Translations under genes and position numbers: made by a program | Source of the DNA: Sulfurimonas sp. | GTDB lineage: Bacteria > Campylobacterota > Campylobacteria > Campylobacterales > Sulfurimonadaceae | Length of the DNA stretch: 64,000 bases | Assembly (NCBI RefSeq): GCF_019429335.1 | Contig: NZ_JAHYJB010000003.1 | Location: 50,769 to 114,768, forward strand | Direction of reading: 5' to 3' | Part shown: piece after piece, positions 33,780 through 41,427 of the stretch | How the letters are laid out: every line of letters begins with the position of its first letter | Position numbering within the stretch: the stretch's first letter is position 1 | The notes under the pieces: model-generated | Told to the model about the DNA's origin: nothing | The model's input: the letters and a program-made list of their open reading frames with translations, nothing else | Database searches by the model: none

Positions 33780-34970
33780 CTATCTCCCAAAATTTTTCAG
33801 TGCTTTTTCTAGTTTCTCTATCAGTTGTGACATTTTAGCAGAAGAGATGGCAAAGTTCAACCTCATAAAACCGCTCCCTTCCCTGCCAAAACTAATCCCC
33901 GCACTTAGTCCAATCCCCGCTTCTTGAACAAAAAAATCCCGCAGCTCCTTATCGCGAAGCCCCAAACCTCTGCAATCAAGCCAAGCCAAATAAGTAGCCT
34001 CTATGGGAGTGATTTTTATAGGATATTTGTCGCACAACTCTTTTAACATGTAGAAATTTTTTGCAAGATGTATCTTTAGCTCTTCAAGCCATATTTTGCC
34101 CTCTTTGTAAGCTGCTTCAAAAGCTACATGTGAGAGCGAACTTCCGTTGGCAAAGTGGATACGGTTATAGACTTTTAAAAATTTCTCTCTCAGCTCTTTA
34201 TTTGGTACGGCGACACTGCTTATAGCAAAGCCAGCCATATTAAAACTCTTTCCTACACCGATAGCCGTAACCGTTATATCTCTCGCCTCTTTGTTTAGCG
34301 AAGCAAAAGGAACATGTAGATTTGGCGCATAAACCAAATCGCTATGAATCTCATCGCTAAATACGACTATGTTATGCTTCAAACATAGCTCTAAAATCTC
34401 CTCCAACTCCTCTTTTTTCCAAACTCGCCCGACTGGGTTATGCGGAGAGCATAGAAGCAGAAGTTTGGTTTTCTCATCTATCTTTGATTTTAAATCTTCT
34501 ATGTCAAATGTATAACTTCCGTCTTCTCTCTGTTTGAGAGGATTTTTCAAAAGCTCTCTCTTATGCTCCATTACACTGTGAAAAAACGGCGGATATACCG
34601 GAGTTTGAACTATGACTTTATCGCCCTTCTCGGTAAATGCCTCTATGGCGACGTTCATACTCGCAACCACCGAGTGCGAATAGAGCATATCTTCTAAGGC
34701 AAACTCTACTCTGTGCTCGTTTTTCATCCACTCTATCTGGGCAATAAACATACTTGGCGGCACCTCCTCATACCCTATGACTGGATGTTCAAGGCGTTTT
34801 TTTACTGCTTCAATCACAAAATCAGGAGTGTCTATATCCATATCCGCAACCCAGAGAGGCATAACATCGTTTGTGCCAAAAAGCTTCTCTCGAAGAACGT
34901 ACTTCTCCGCGTTTGTGTTTTCTCTACATGCAGAGGTTGAAAAATGGTATTTATTTTTTTGATTTTTCAT
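33780..34970 (-). CDS. MalY/PatB-type PLP aminotransferase / C-S lyase
   Basis: PLWVADMDIDTPDFV, SPHNPVGRVW, SDEIHSDLVY, GVGKSFNMAGF. Confidence 0.92.
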   Translation of the reverse strand: MKNQKNKYHFSTSACRENTNAEKYVLREKLFGTNDVMPLWVADMDIDTPDFVIEAVKKRLEHPVIGYEEVPPSMFIAQIEWMKNEHRVEFALEDMLYSHSVVASMNVAIEAFTEKGDKVIVQTPVYPPFFHSVMEHKRELLKNPLKQREDGSYTFDIEDLKSKIDEKTKLLLLCSPHNPVGRVWKKEELEEILELCLKHNIVVFSDEIHSDLVYAPNLHVPFASLNKEARDITVTAIGVGKSFNMAGFAISSVAVPNKELREKFLKVYNRIHFANGSSLSHVAFEAAYKEGKIWLEELKIHLAKNFYMLKELCDKYPIKITPIEATYLAWLDCRGLGLRDKELRDFFVQEAGIGLSAGISFGREGSGFMRLNFAISSAKMSQLIEKLEKALKNFGR

Positions 34971-35016
34971 GAATATACTATCTGATTAACGTAAATAATA
35001 GTAATATTCCCATTTA

Positions 35017-35760
35017 TTACATGTTCTCAAAAAATATTTTAATTACTTCATGTTTTAATTCTTCAAAATCAATTGTATAATCAAAATCTTTTTCCAACCC
35101 TATATTAACTACATTGATAAAATTTTCTTTTGTATAGTTTCCATAACAATTTTTATAATCTATTTCAATAGAATCTAATTTTGAAATTAAACATATTGCT
35201 TGATATGCTTTATCCGATACGCTTGTTTTATTATTTGGATGGGCTCGATAAAAATGTTGATTTGGAGTTATAGCAATAATATTTTCAGCCATATCTGCTA
35301 ATTCTGGAAATTTAGATGATAAAAAAATATGATGTGCTTGTGTTGCAGGATATGAATTAAATCTGTGAATTTCACTATAAGGGTGAATAGTTTTAACAAA
35401 TCTTTTTGCTTTTTCGATTTGGTATTTATAAAATTTATCATTATCAATTTCTTTTTCAAAAAATTGAACATTAAACTCTTCCCTTGTAAGAGATTTATCT
35501 TTTCTAATATCTCTCCAATTTGGTCTATTATAAAGTAAATCATTGTAATTTATTTCAGCAACTTCACCTGATTTACTACCAAATTTTTTATATTTAAAAC
35601 ATAATGTATTCAGCATCGGATTAAATATTCTTATTGGCTCTTTATCTTTAGTGATTTTTGTATATTTTTTAATAAATACTAAATAATTATTTCGTAATTC
35701 ATAAAGTGAATCTTTATCTTGTATTTTAAAAAAAAGTATCAAAATATTTCCATATATCAC
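35017..35760 (-). CDS. HNH/His-Me finger-like restriction endonuclease, C-terminal portion (probable frameshifted gene with 35726-36187)
   Basis: PATQAHHIFLSSKFPELADMAENIIAITPNQHFYRAHPNN resembles a bba-Me finger core; adjacent to MTase; frames join cleanly if the 8-nt homopolymer at 35728-35735 loses 1 nt. Confidence 0.7.
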   Translation of the reverse strand: MIYGNILILFFKIQDKDSLYELRNNYLVFIKKYTKITKDKEPIRIFNPMLNTLCFKYKKFGSKSGEVAEINYNDLLYNRPNWRDIRKDKSLTREEFNVQFFEKEIDNDKFYKYQIEKAKRFVKTIHPYSEIHRFNSYPATQAHHIFLSSKFPELADMAENIIAITPNQHFYRAHPNNKTSVSDKAYQAICLISKLDSIEIDYKNCYGNYTKENFINVVNIGLEKDFDYTIDFEELKHEVIKIFFENM

Positions 35761-36187
35761 TATCTTTTAAAACTTTTTCAAGATATATTGATAAAAAATA
35801 AAAAGCATTTCTATCTCTTAAAGATATATACTCTATAAATTCTTTATTTACAACTATATATTTATATGGTTTTTTATCTCTATTTTCATTAATTAAACCA
35901 GAATAAGCCAGCATTTTCAGTGGCTGTGAAAAAAATTTATCATATTCCTTTTCTGCTTTTTTGACTTCTGGCTTATTAAATATTTCTGTAACTAATTCAT
36001 TTGAATAGGAACAAAATCGTATATCATTAACTGTAAAAGTATTTTCATCTTTTATACAATTAAGAATACATTCACAAACTGCACTTAATACATCAGGCTG
36101 AACTTTTTGATCAAAAAACCTCGCACTCCTAGTTTTTCTAATATCCAAATCTTTATTGTGAAAATATTCTTGTATTTCAGCTCTCAT
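35726..36187 (-). CDS. N-terminal portion of the same putative restriction endonuclease
   Basis: Ends ...DIWKYFDTFF* exactly in the T8 run (minus strand); next frame continues KIQDKDSLYELRNNYLVFIKK. Confidence 0.65.
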   Translation of the reverse strand: MRAEIQEYFHNKDLDIRKTRSARFFDQKVQPDVLSAVCECILNCIKDENTFTVNDIRFCSYSNELVTEIFNKPEVKKAEKEYDKFFSQPLKMLAYSGLINENRDKKPYKYIVVNKEFIEYISLRDRNAFYFLSIYLEKVLKDSDIWKYFDTFF

Positions 36188-36190
36188 AAT

Positions 36191-36574
36191 TTAATTTGGT
36201 AAACCTAAACCTATATCAAAATCACCAATATAGTTAGTAGGAATATTTCCACGAACTATATTAACATTCTGTATCTTGCCATTAATAAATCCATAATTTT
36301 GATATAAATTACATAAAAATTCATTACAATTTGTTCTATGTTGAATATTTCCATTTCCTGCTGTTAAACTAAAGTAACCTGGTATAGACGGATTAGTTTG
36401 ATAAAAATGAATTCTTCCTTCACTTCCCCAAGCACCTTGATTTTGGTTGTTTTCCCAATTTAAACTAGTAGAATTATTATTCCTAGCTAAATAACCTAAA
36501 GCTTGATAGTATTCACTTTCAGAATTAAATCGAATTTGTGCTGGATTATTTGTTCCAAAACTTGATTGATACAT
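36191..36574 (-). CDS. Uncharacterised 127-aa protein within the R-M-like operon
   Basis: Good SD (AAAAAGGAAAAGAATG); 3-nt gap to the following ORF; Asn/Gly-rich, no family recognised. Confidence 0.7.
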   Translation of the reverse strand: MYQSSFGTNNPAQIRFNSESEYYQALGYLARNNNSTSLNWENNQNQGAWGSEGRIHFYQTNPSIPGYFSLTAGNGNIQHRTNCNEFLCNLYQNYGFINGKIQNVNIVRGNIPTNYIGDFDIGLGLPN

Positions 36575-36613
36575 TCTTTTCCTTTTTAAATAAATTTACA
36601 ACATTAATATTAC

Positions 36614-39100
36614 TTATTTAAACTTAAGTAATCCAAAAAACTTTACTGAATTATTATCTATATTTAAAGACCTAGTGCCTCTATTTCTTGCAATTTTATA
36701 ATATTCAGTAAATTCTTCACTACTATAATAATTTAAATGTTCTTGTGTTATATTAATACCATCTTTTGCTTTTAATAGGGCAACGGAACCATCTGCAATA
36801 CTGTTTTTTGGTAAAAAAGTTGCTCTTGGGTAGTATGTCAAATTTGGCACTAAAACAATATCGTTCTGATTAAGATATTTTGATACCACAAAACTATCTA
36901 TTTCATCCATAAAACAATCATAACTTTCTATATCTTTTATTTTATTGTTATCTATATTTCTTGATTTCAAAACTCTAAACTTTCCACTGCTTAAAGTATG
37001 TTTTTTTGTAATTTGCCTATCTCTAAATGTTTCAAATATATCAAGTTCCATTTTTTCAGCAATAAGATCAAAAAACTCATTTCTATATATTAGCCAGTAG
37101 GGAAATTCTTTTGAAAATATATAGTCTTTATTTTGATAAATAAGAGTATTGGTAATATAACTTTCTATTTTCATCTGCTCAAGTTTTTCTTTTTTATATG
37201 TATCAAGTAAAAAGCTTATTGTTTCAATTTTTACACCTTTAAAAGCTTTCTCTCCATAATCGGTAAGAGAGTGGAGATTATTTTTTTCTAACATCTTTCT
37301 TGTTTCATTAAATTCAGGTGCATTAATCAAACTTTTTGGAACAATCAAGGAAACATATTTACCTAGTTTTATGGATTTTTCAATAAAAAATGAAAATAGA
37401 TTATTTGTATCTTTGTTTTGAGAGACTGATTTATATGATTCCAATAAAGATTTTTCATTTATAACTTTTCCATAGGGTGGATTACCTATTACTAAGTCAT
37501 AAGAATATTCATTAGCCCATAATAAAAAATCCTCATTTATAAAATTAATAATGATATTTTTTGGTACTTTTGTTTTTTCTAGTAGCAGTTTCAATATCCC
37601 AAGTGAATTTTTATCAATATCAACTACATCTAAAATAACTTTTGGAATGTTTTTGTATTTTTTAAATAGTAAAGGCAAAAAGTTTCCTATACCAACAGAG
37701 GGTTCAAGTATTTTAATAGATTTTTTGTTATCAAAACTAGGTAATTTAGAAATAACATTAAAAACTATATCTTCTCTTGTAAAATATGCTTTTGTCTCAC
37801 TTCTATTTACATTAGATAATTCAGCAATATTATAAAGAGTATTCATATCGCATTTAAGAGGATTGTCTTTTATAAAATTTTTTAATATATTTAAATCTAG
37901 CAGATTGTATTCTTGTATAGTTTTATTTATTTCATTAATAGATAAAACTTTTTGATTTAAAACTTTTTTAATATTTTGTGCAATTTGCTCAAATATTTTA
38001 GTTGGTACTGCTTCACCGATACAATGTCTTATATTTAATTCTTCTTGTTTTAAAAACTTTTTCTTTTCTTCATTTGATAAATTATTTAATGCTTCAAATT
38101 CAATATTTGACCATTTAAATTCATTAGGGATAGTCATCATACGCATAAGTTCTCTTATACTAAATACTCTGTTATCGGAGGGATGAATTGTATTTTGACT
38201 TGCTAAAATATCATTTCTTGTGTGAATACAAGGTGCAACTTTATCCCAATACCATCTTGCGTATTTATCACCATTTTTATTTTTGTTAAAAACCATCTTT
38301 CCATTAATAATTTTGTGTGGTATTCGCTCTACTTCAATATTGCTAAATGCTGATTGCCCTTCTTTTATAGTTTCTATCCAAGGCAACATTTTTTCATCAA
38401 AACTCCTGCAAGAGTGGAAAATATCATCTTTAGAGATTTCTCCCATAATTTTTAATGATGGTAAGTCTGATATTAAATGTTTTAATATTTTTGCTTTTTG
38501 TTCTTTTGGAAAAAGTTGATGTGGGCTTACATTTATTAAATCTTTTCTAACACCGATAACTAAAGTTCTTGTTCTACTTGATTGAGCACCATAATCTTTA
38601 AAATTTATTACTTTTGATAAAATGTTGTATGTCCCACCAAGATTTGAGTCTATAGCTTCTTTAATAGATTTTTCAATATTGTCTACATCAGTACAAAGAG
38701 TATTTAAAAAAGCTCTTACATTTTCAAAAATAAAAAATTTTGGTTTAATTTGACTAACTATTTTAATAGATTCTACTACTAAGGAATTTCTTTTGATTTC
38801 ATTATTTTTTTTATGATTTGCAACAGACATCCCTTGGCACGGGGGAGTGGCTATTAAAACATCTAAATCGTTTACATTATTATTTTCTAATTCTCTGTAA
38901 ATTTTATCTTGTATTTCTCGCTCTGATAAATCACCTTGTATATATCCAGTACTAAATTCACACTTATTATTAAACTGTTGTATCTTAATTCTTTTACTAA
39001 GGTATTCATTTGTTGCAACACATTTAAAACCTTGTTGCTTAAATCCGTAACATCCAATACCTGCACTACTGAAAAGAGAGACATAATTTAATAATTTCAT
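36614..39100 (-). CDS. Fused DNA methyltransferase: C5-cytosine MTase (N-terminal) plus N6-adenine MTase (C-terminal)
   Basis: m5C motifs FSSAGIGCYGF (I), ATPPCQGMS (IV), FIFENVRAF (VI), SSRTRTLVIGVR (VIII), IGEAVP (X); then m6A motifs ILEPSVGIGNFLP (I) and DLVIGNPPYG (IV). Confidence 0.92.
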   Translation of the reverse strand: MKLLNYVSLFSSAGIGCYGFKQQGFKCVATNEYLSKRIKIQQFNNKCEFSTGYIQGDLSEREIQDKIYRELENNNVNDLDVLIATPPCQGMSVANHKKNNEIKRNSLVVESIKIVSQIKPKFFIFENVRAFLNTLCTDVDNIEKSIKEAIDSNLGGTYNILSKVINFKDYGAQSSRTRTLVIGVRKDLINVSPHQLFPKEQKAKILKHLISDLPSLKIMGEISKDDIFHSCRSFDEKMLPWIETIKEGQSAFSNIEVERIPHKIINGKMVFNKNKNGDKYARWYWDKVAPCIHTRNDILASQNTIHPSDNRVFSIRELMRMMTIPNEFKWSNIEFEALNNLSNEEKKKFLKQEELNIRHCIGEAVPTKIFEQIAQNIKKVLNQKVLSINEINKTIQEYNLLDLNILKNFIKDNPLKCDMNTLYNIAELSNVNRSETKAYFTREDIVFNVISKLPSFDNKKSIKILEPSVGIGNFLPLLFKKYKNIPKVILDVVDIDKNSLGILKLLLEKTKVPKNIIINFINEDFLLWANEYSYDLVIGNPPYGKVINEKSLLESYKSVSQNKDTNNLFSFFIEKSIKLGKYVSLIVPKSLINAPEFNETRKMLEKNNLHSLTDYGEKAFKGVKIETISFLLDTYKKEKLEQMKIESYITNTLIYQNKDYIFSKEFPYWLIYRNEFFDLIAEKMELDIFETFRDRQITKKHTLSSGKFRVLKSRNIDNNKIKDIESYDCFMDEIDSFVVSKYLNQNDIVLVPNLTYYPRATFLPKNSIADGSVALLKAKDGINITQEHLNYYSSEEFTEYYKIARNRGTRSLNIDNNSVKFFGLLKFK

Positions 39101-39327
39101 TAAAACTCCATATTTTATACTTTTTATTACTGTATTCCATATAACTAATTTCTCAACGAGTTAGTTGTTTACTCTCATTTGATTATTATTTGCCATACTT
39201 AGAAAAACTTTGATTATATTAGACAACTTTTGACCTCCGCTCTTTATTTTTAAAATTATAACTTTTTATGCTTACATATATTACTTTCTTTTTATATGAG
39301 AACAATAAAATATGTCATTTTGCAATA

Positions 39328-41427
39328 TTATCTTTTCCTCCAAACACTAACCTCTGCGATGCTGTGCTGAAACTTTCTTGCCGTCTCTTTGATAACAAAC
39401 TCCAAATCCTGAAGATGTACAAGCTCAAATTTTTTACCCAAAATCTCTTTTAGCGTATCTATCGTTTTTATCTCTTTGGCGCTCTCATCTTTGTATCCGC
39501 CGAGCCAGAACTCTTTTTTGGTTGAGCTCTCTTGCCAAGTGTATGGCGAGGTTAAAATCAAAACGCCATCTCTGTTTAGCCTCTCATAAACGCTCTCCAA
39601 AAATAGTCTGGGATTGTAGAGCCTGTCTATGAGATTTGTAGCCATGACTAAATCGTAAGAGTTGAAATTTGGCTTGAGGTTACATGCGTCACCCTGCCAG
39701 AATGAGACTCTCTCTTTTAGATTCTCATAGCCAAGCTCCTCTATGTTCACCTTTTTTTTCTCTACCAAATCGCCCTCGGTTTTTGAAGCAAAACCGATGT
39801 ATCCGTCACTTTTTAGTTTTACGCCCACGCCTATAAATCTAGCCGAGAAGTCAATCCCCTGAACCTCATCAAAACTCTTTGCAAGCTCAAAAGCCGCTCT
39901 TCCTGTCGCACATCCCAAATCAAGAGCTTTTGTGTGGTTTTTTGCAAATTTTGAGGCTATTTTTGCGCACTCTATTGCAAAGTTTTTTACGCCGAAGTTC
40001 TCATCTCCGTACTGAAACTCACAATACTGTGAAACAAGTTCGTCACTCTCGTAGACATCACTCTCTATTCTATCGTCACTGCTTGAGATAACATATCTAA
40101 AACCGGCGTTTTGAGGGAAGTGCTTACGAAATGCGTAACGGGAGTGTTTCATTATAAGGTTTCCGCTGCTAGCCCATGACGAGCCTAAAATCAGCGCATG
40201 TCTGCCATCATATGTCGGCACGGAAAAGTCATCATATGCCGAATGAACTTCAAATCCCTCAAAGCCGAATATCGGAGTTTTACTCCACTGCCAGACGTTT
40301 CCGACAACATCATATATGCCGTTGAAACCAAACTCATTTACGGGACATGAGCTAAAGTAGTGGTAAAAGTTTAGGTTTGCCCTGCTCTCATGAAAGTCCG
40401 GAATATCCTGCAAACCTGCATAATTGTATATCAGTCTATACTCCGTCTCGCTTGGCAAAGAGTAGATAACTCCATCCTTTTTACCTTTGTAACGGCAAAA
40501 TGCCTCCGCTTCAAGCGCATTTACATCCGCAGGCCAGTCAAGCGGCATATCTATGAGTTTAGAGAGTGTTCTATATCTGTACATGCCCTCTTCTAATACC
40601 CAAAACAGAGGATGTTTTGCGCCGCTTATCTCTAAAAACTTTCTCCCCTCGTCATCCCAAAATTCCTCATCTTCATATCCCCCCTCTTTTACAAACTCCA
40701 TAAATTCGGCGTTGCTTACCAGATATTTTGAGACTTTAAATTTTTCTATCGTCTCGCTAAACTCTCCATACTCGTTATCCCAGCCGTAGAGATTGTGTGA
40801 CTTATCTTTACCTAAAACAACATTGCCGCCCTCTATTGTTATCATCTTATTTTTTGGAGCGGATGAACTATGCGGACAGATGTTGAACTCTTTTACCTCT
40901 TTTACCTTCTCAAGCGGCATCTGGCGGTGCAAAACAAGCGATGTTTCTATATGGATACGCTCATGCTCTATGCCCATAAGAACTATCCACATAGGCGATT
41001 CCTGCGTAATAGGCAGAGTCAATGGAAGCGAAGCTATAAGAGAATCAACGATATTTCTCACCTTCATTCTATATGCTCTAACATCATCCACTTTTGGCCA
41101 CTTATAATGCGTGCTATTTGTATCGTCCCACTCCATCTCATCCACACCAACGGCAAAAATGGACTCAAACTCGGGATTTATCCGTTCTTTTATTATCTTC
41201 ATATATATTAGTTTATTTATAAAAAAAGTGGCGGTATGTCCGAAATAAAATATCATCGGATGGCGAGTCGGCTCGGATTTTTGATAAAAAACCTCATCGC
41301 TCTTTAGTACTTCAAAAATCTTCTCAAAAATATCGTAAGTGTTGTGAAAATATGCTCTTATCTCTTCTCTTTTTGCCTCTCTGTCTGTCCCGTCTAAAGT
41401 TATGGGATATAAACTAAACTTACTCAA
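39328..41427 (-). CDS. ovoA: 5-histidylcysteine sulfoxide synthase with C-terminal methyltransferase (ovothiol biosynthesis)
   Basis: DinB-like domain with HERIHIETS, FGE-sulfatase domain (NVWQWSKTPIFGFEGF...GSSWAS), C-terminal SAM-MTase (LDLGCATGRAAFELAK). TTG start with AAAGGGA upstream. Confidence 0.9.
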   Translation of the reverse strand: MSKFSLYPITLDGTDREAKREEIRAYFHNTYDIFEKIFEVLKSDEVFYQKSEPTRHPMIFYFGHTATFFINKLIYMKIIKERINPEFESIFAVGVDEMEWDDTNSTHYKWPKVDDVRAYRMKVRNIVDSLIASLPLTLPITQESPMWIVLMGIEHERIHIETSLVLHRQMPLEKVKEVKEFNICPHSSSAPKNKMITIEGGNVVLGKDKSHNLYGWDNEYGEFSETIEKFKVSKYLVSNAEFMEFVKEGGYEDEEFWDDEGRKFLEISGAKHPLFWVLEEGMYRYRTLSKLIDMPLDWPADVNALEAEAFCRYKGKKDGVIYSLPSETEYRLIYNYAGLQDIPDFHESRANLNFYHYFSSCPVNEFGFNGIYDVVGNVWQWSKTPIFGFEGFEVHSAYDDFSVPTYDGRHALILGSSWASSGNLIMKHSRYAFRKHFPQNAGFRYVISSSDDRIESDVYESDELVSQYCEFQYGDENFGVKNFAIECAKIASKFAKNHTKALDLGCATGRAAFELAKSFDEVQGIDFSARFIGVGVKLKSDGYIGFASKTEGDLVEKKKVNIEELGYENLKERVSFWQGDACNLKPNFNSYDLVMATNLIDRLYNPRLFLESVYERLNRDGVLILTSPYTWQESSTKKEFWLGGYKDESAKEIKTIDTLKEILGKKFELVHLQDLEFVIKETARKFQHSIAEVSVWRKR

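Follow-up and report, generated by a model that had tools for sequence, protein, structure and literature searches.

The 64,000-nt window (the whole stretch of Sulfurimonas DNA analyzed here) encodes on its minus strand a fused m5C and m6A DNA methyltransferase (M), which is highly likely to be the modification enzyme of a HpyAV/Hin4II-type (type IIS, HNH) restriction–modification cassette; this reading best explains the locus as a whole. The domain order, motifs and family match of M, the homology and HNH spacing of its partner endonuclease (R), the frame break in R and the insert site were all observed directly. The locus contains the following features.

36614-39100, minus strand: M, fused m5C + m6A DNA methyltransferase, M.HpyAV-like (Pfam, PADLOC, 27-sequence alignment)
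36191-36574, minus strand: X, conserved accessory ORF of 127 aa between M and R (homologs at HpyAV-type loci)
35017-36187, minus strand: R, gene for an HpyAV-type HNH type IIS restriction endonuclease, broken into two overlapping frames (PDLC03488)
35728-35735, minus strand: 8-base homopolymer (T8 in gene sense), site of the frame break (alignment, homopolymer scan)
39178-39328, minus strand: apparent remnant of an NgoPII-type restriction endonuclease gene, comprising its 5' end and upstream DNA (blastn)
34971-39327, no strand assigned: whole insert (low GC; site empty in most same-genus genomes)

The M ORF starts with ATG and encodes 828 aa, as an earlier note on this DNA had described at the same coordinates; it lies on the minus strand, and the plus strand across it is riddled with stops. 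Residues ~1-385 form the m5C half and residues ~430-828 the m6A half. The Pfam search that the note had called for placed both domains in the one protein, each above the curated cut-off: DNA_methylase at residues 5-379 (E 1.1e-42) and Eco57I at residues 518-619 (E 5.9e-13). All the motifs that the note had cited were found, namely FSSAGIG, PPCQG (86-90), ENVR (126-129), SSRTRTL (174-180) and IGEAVP in the C5 half, and EPSVGIGNF (466-474) and NPPY (540-543) in the Eco57I-type N6-adenine half, which is followed by a C-terminal recognition region. In the 27-sequence alignment of fused relatives, P86, P87, C88, Q89, E126, N127, V128, R176 and R178 were invariant, as were N540, P541 and P542. The fused frame was uninterrupted in relatives of 47-80% identity from Campylobacterota, Bacteroidota, Ignavibacteria, Patescibacteria and Psychrobacter, so the fused frame did not arise from misassembly. 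The dN/dS of M against its counterparts at the closest related loci, L025 and L026, was 0.10-0.11.

Comparison with PADLOC models assigned M to a known family. The type II methyltransferase model PDLC03277 (823 positions) spans residues 3-826 (E 2.6e-235), and the models PDLC03370 (387 positions) and PDLC03382 (445 positions) match the first and second halves, respectively. Since M.HpyAV, M1.Hin4II and M2.Hin4II were published as proteins of 823, 387 and 445 aa, these three models presumably derive from those enzymes. In HpyAV of Helicobacter pylori 26695 (M.HpyAV = HP0054, R.HpyAV = HP0053), the 823-aa M is a fusion in the same C5-then-N6A order, located upstream of and co-directional with an HNH endonuclease gene with the same catalytic spacing as here, and the system recognizes CCTTC(6/5) (PMC2816704). 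The Sulfurimonas cassette differs from it in carrying a further gene of 127 aa between M and R, in the frameshift that splits R, and in its host, another campylobacterotal genus. Novelty of an m5C–m6A fusion, which the earlier note had implied, does not hold: M.HpyAV and ten homologous fusions were already described in 2010, and such published fusions are what the note itself had named as refuting novelty.

Hin4II of Haemophilus influenzae (M1, M2, R) shares the R family, and the halves of M match the M1- and M2-length models; however, Hin4II has two separate methyltransferase genes where the window has one fused gene. On two Acinetobacter plasmids (NZ_CP114603 and NZ_CP101116; loci L054/L052), the two methyltransferases are encoded by separate, overlapping genes ahead of R; this two-gene form, as in Hin4II, indicates that the fused and split states are both natural. 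Joined methyltransferases for asymmetric sites are a known arrangement, also represented by FokI and AlwI, which likewise have two methyltransferases in a single chain, each serving its own strand of an asymmetric site, but belong to different families with different pairings and not to the m5C plus m6A combination of this lineage (review, PMC4081073).

The R gene adjoins M downstream on the same strand, with M first, as supported by PDLC03488 and by tblastn in relatives. R consists of an N-terminal part (35726-36187, 153 aa) and a C-terminal HNH part (35017-35760, 247 aa), and the PADLOC model PDLC03488 (REase_II) matches them consecutively, at profile positions 5-158 and then 153-382. The HNH part contains AHHIF, with N at +16 and H at +25 from the second H, a spacing equal to that of H294/H295/N311/H320 of HpyAV, which were verified by mutation. 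A family feature that differs is the reading frame, which would be continuous over about 390-420 aa and is here split at 35728-35735. Whereas the earlier note had recognized the fusion, it had overlooked the HNH endonuclease downstream with its apparent frameshift, as well as the third gene.

Alignment showed that the homopolymer at the break is one base longer than in L025, L026, L027, L005 and L007, and R is unbroken in one frame in >30 relatives, including the closest, L025 and L026. The R homolog of L007, from Maribacter litoralis, is likewise intact. Against these two loci, each R part had a dN/dS of 0.16-0.20; this purifying selection indicates that the break is either recent or an assembly error. 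No second copy of R was found in the genome. At the HpyAV-type homolog L035 (genome G055), R is likewise split over two frames and M is intact, and R of the H. pylori G27 homolog also carries a lesion. Given the frame break, R has presumably lost its function and M, itself presumably active, probably works without restriction; in the cells as sequenced, CCTTC would then probably be methylated but left uncut, or be cut at a low level only. The split bears on the present activity of R, not on the descent of M or R.

It is nevertheless quite possible that restriction is fully active and that the break is an error of sequencing, reflects a phase-variable OFF state or is overcome by slippage at the 8-base tract. 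The sole lesion is a single homopolymer length difference, the reading frames are otherwise intact and under purifying selection, as expected of a recent or spurious break, and slippage on poly-T/A tracts is known from AT-rich genomes. On the other hand, the assembly does read a break, R is also split in L035 and damaged in H. pylori G27, and the tract is not special, since a homopolymer scan of the 64,000-nt window found 14 A/T tracts of 8 or more. We do not claim phase variation of R, as the tract is merely one of these 14. Loss of R function is our preferred reading.

In the mechanism proposed for M, the N-terminal half would produce C5-methylcytosine in CCTTC and the C-terminal half N6-methyladenine in GAAGG, and one M protein would guard both strands of the asymmetric site. 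The methylome of M.HpyAV showed exactly these modifications: CCTTC carried m5C, and its complement GAAGG carried m6A (PMC3936762). Because the homologue is published as working in this way and M is conserved in both of its recognition regions, M here, too, very probably modifies the two strands of an asymmetric site differently, one with m5C and the other with m6A, judging from sequence and analogy; the earlier note had proposed this two-strand modification, and its proposal stands, although as an instance of a known mechanism and not as a new one. It is plausible that protection would be gained in a single step.

CCTTC is the putative target, assigned from homologs of the Helicobacter/Campylobacter group, with which M is about 50% identical. 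When specificity changes, recognition regions usually diverge quicker than catalytic cores. Compared with Helicobacter/Campylobacter-side homologs, assigned by kinship and published host range, the C5 recognition region of M showed 54-59% identity against 55-58% for the core, and the N6 recognition region 40-47% against 43-48%. This conservation at the level of the cores supports CCTTC without proving it. It also argues against an HpyAV-type architecture with diverged specificity for a related 5-base asymmetric site other than CCTTC, as neither half shows extra divergence in its recognition region relative to its core; such a shift is unlikely, even though M is no more than about 50% identical to the Helicobacter/Campylobacter group and the HpyAV paper suggests a 1-bp variant site for distant REase homologs (PMC2816704). 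A chance fusion of two unrelated methyltransferases with independent targets is extremely improbable, considering that the fused form and the same R neighbour are kept across phyla, that the split version on the Acinetobacter plasmids consists of adjacent overlapping genes, and that the M.HpyAV methylome revealed a single site (PMC3936762). The observed/expected ratio of CCTTC was 0.58 in the genome of the window (G000), 0.84-1.00 in three relatives and 0.61 in a fourth, a close relative with a small sample; depletion was dropped as a sign of methylation because the likewise depleted close relative (0.61 vs 0.58) makes it non-discriminating.

Homologs of X were present at 13 other loci beside HpyAV-type M/R (L001, L003, L005, L007, L008, L009, L013, L022/L050, L025, L026, L051, L052 and L053). 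In the window and at L025, L026 and L001, X separates M from R; in Bacteroidota, Ignavibacteria, Acinetobacter, Psychrobacter and a faecal scaffold labelled as phage, it follows R. Searches started from X in 397 Campylobacterota genomes, plasmids, phages and viral contigs gave matches only beside HpyAV-type genes, with one chance-level exception, a weak match in G210 that sits in a sensor-kinase-like ORF and was taken as chance. Most HpyAV-type loci of Campylobacterota lack X, which indicates an optional component. In Carboxylicivirga (L022, L050), a contig classed as viral (IMG/VR) carries a small helix-turn-helix gene ahead of an HpyAV-type M, an additional gene of 184 aa, R and X.

By sequence, X belongs to no family in Pfam, NCBIfam or PADLOC, and its matches in PHROGs and PDB were at chance level only. 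Its AlphaFold2 model is confident (pLDDT 90.4); Foldseek returned no significant match with it, the best matches in both libraries being LAGLIDADG/DOD homing-endonuclease proteins (PDB 1dq3, E 0.72; viral A0A6J5L1N7, E 0.04, prob 0.92, TM 0.49). The EYYxALGxLAxSDG region has a loose likeness to the LAGLIDADG motif, with N instead of D in the window protein. As a weak lead, the predicted fold may loosely resemble single-motif LAGLIDADG proteins, although X does not conserve the catalytic acid. Only tentatively could X be regarded as an undescribed, optional third restriction–modification component that may bind DNA and regulate or assist the endonuclease.

The insert has a GC content of about 25-31%, compared with ~39% around it, and is flanked by an ovoA-like gene (39328-41427) and a patB/malY-like gene (33780-34970). 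These two genes overlap or abut in most of the about 50 same-genus genomes that have both, whereas in the window they are 4.36 kb apart. The cassette (M, X and R) was probably acquired horizontally into a chromosomal slot between them. At least six different inserts, mostly defence genes, were found at this junction (L080-L089), and no integrase was seen in the slot inserts examined. The occupants in other genomes are listed below.

G200: NgoPII-type R-M system
G427: Eco47II-type R-M system
G428: type IIG enzyme and TIR protein
G341 and G432: PDC-S05-type proteins
G414: 1020-aa protein (L083:213-3275)
G357: gene of non-defence appearance

The 1020-aa protein had no Pfam or PADLOC match and is a candidate for an unrecognised defence gene. 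In this genus, we regard the ovoA-patB junction as a slot into which defence cassettes insert. Next to the cassette, ~150 bp of the window are homologous to the beginning of the gene for the NgoPII-type endonuclease in G200: blastn aligned window positions 39178-39500 with L080 33-355 at 81.6%, crossing the start of that gene at L080:307. This apparent remnant suggests that one cassette was replaced by another.

Whether such a fusion serves both strands has already been answered for M.HpyAV, and the remaining value lies in the wide sampling of HpyAV-type fusions, beyond the mammal-associated microbes of the 2010 survey, in X, and in the ovoA-patB slot, where different defence cassettes have apparently replaced each other. 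X, conserved and unannotated, is the least explained part of the cassette.
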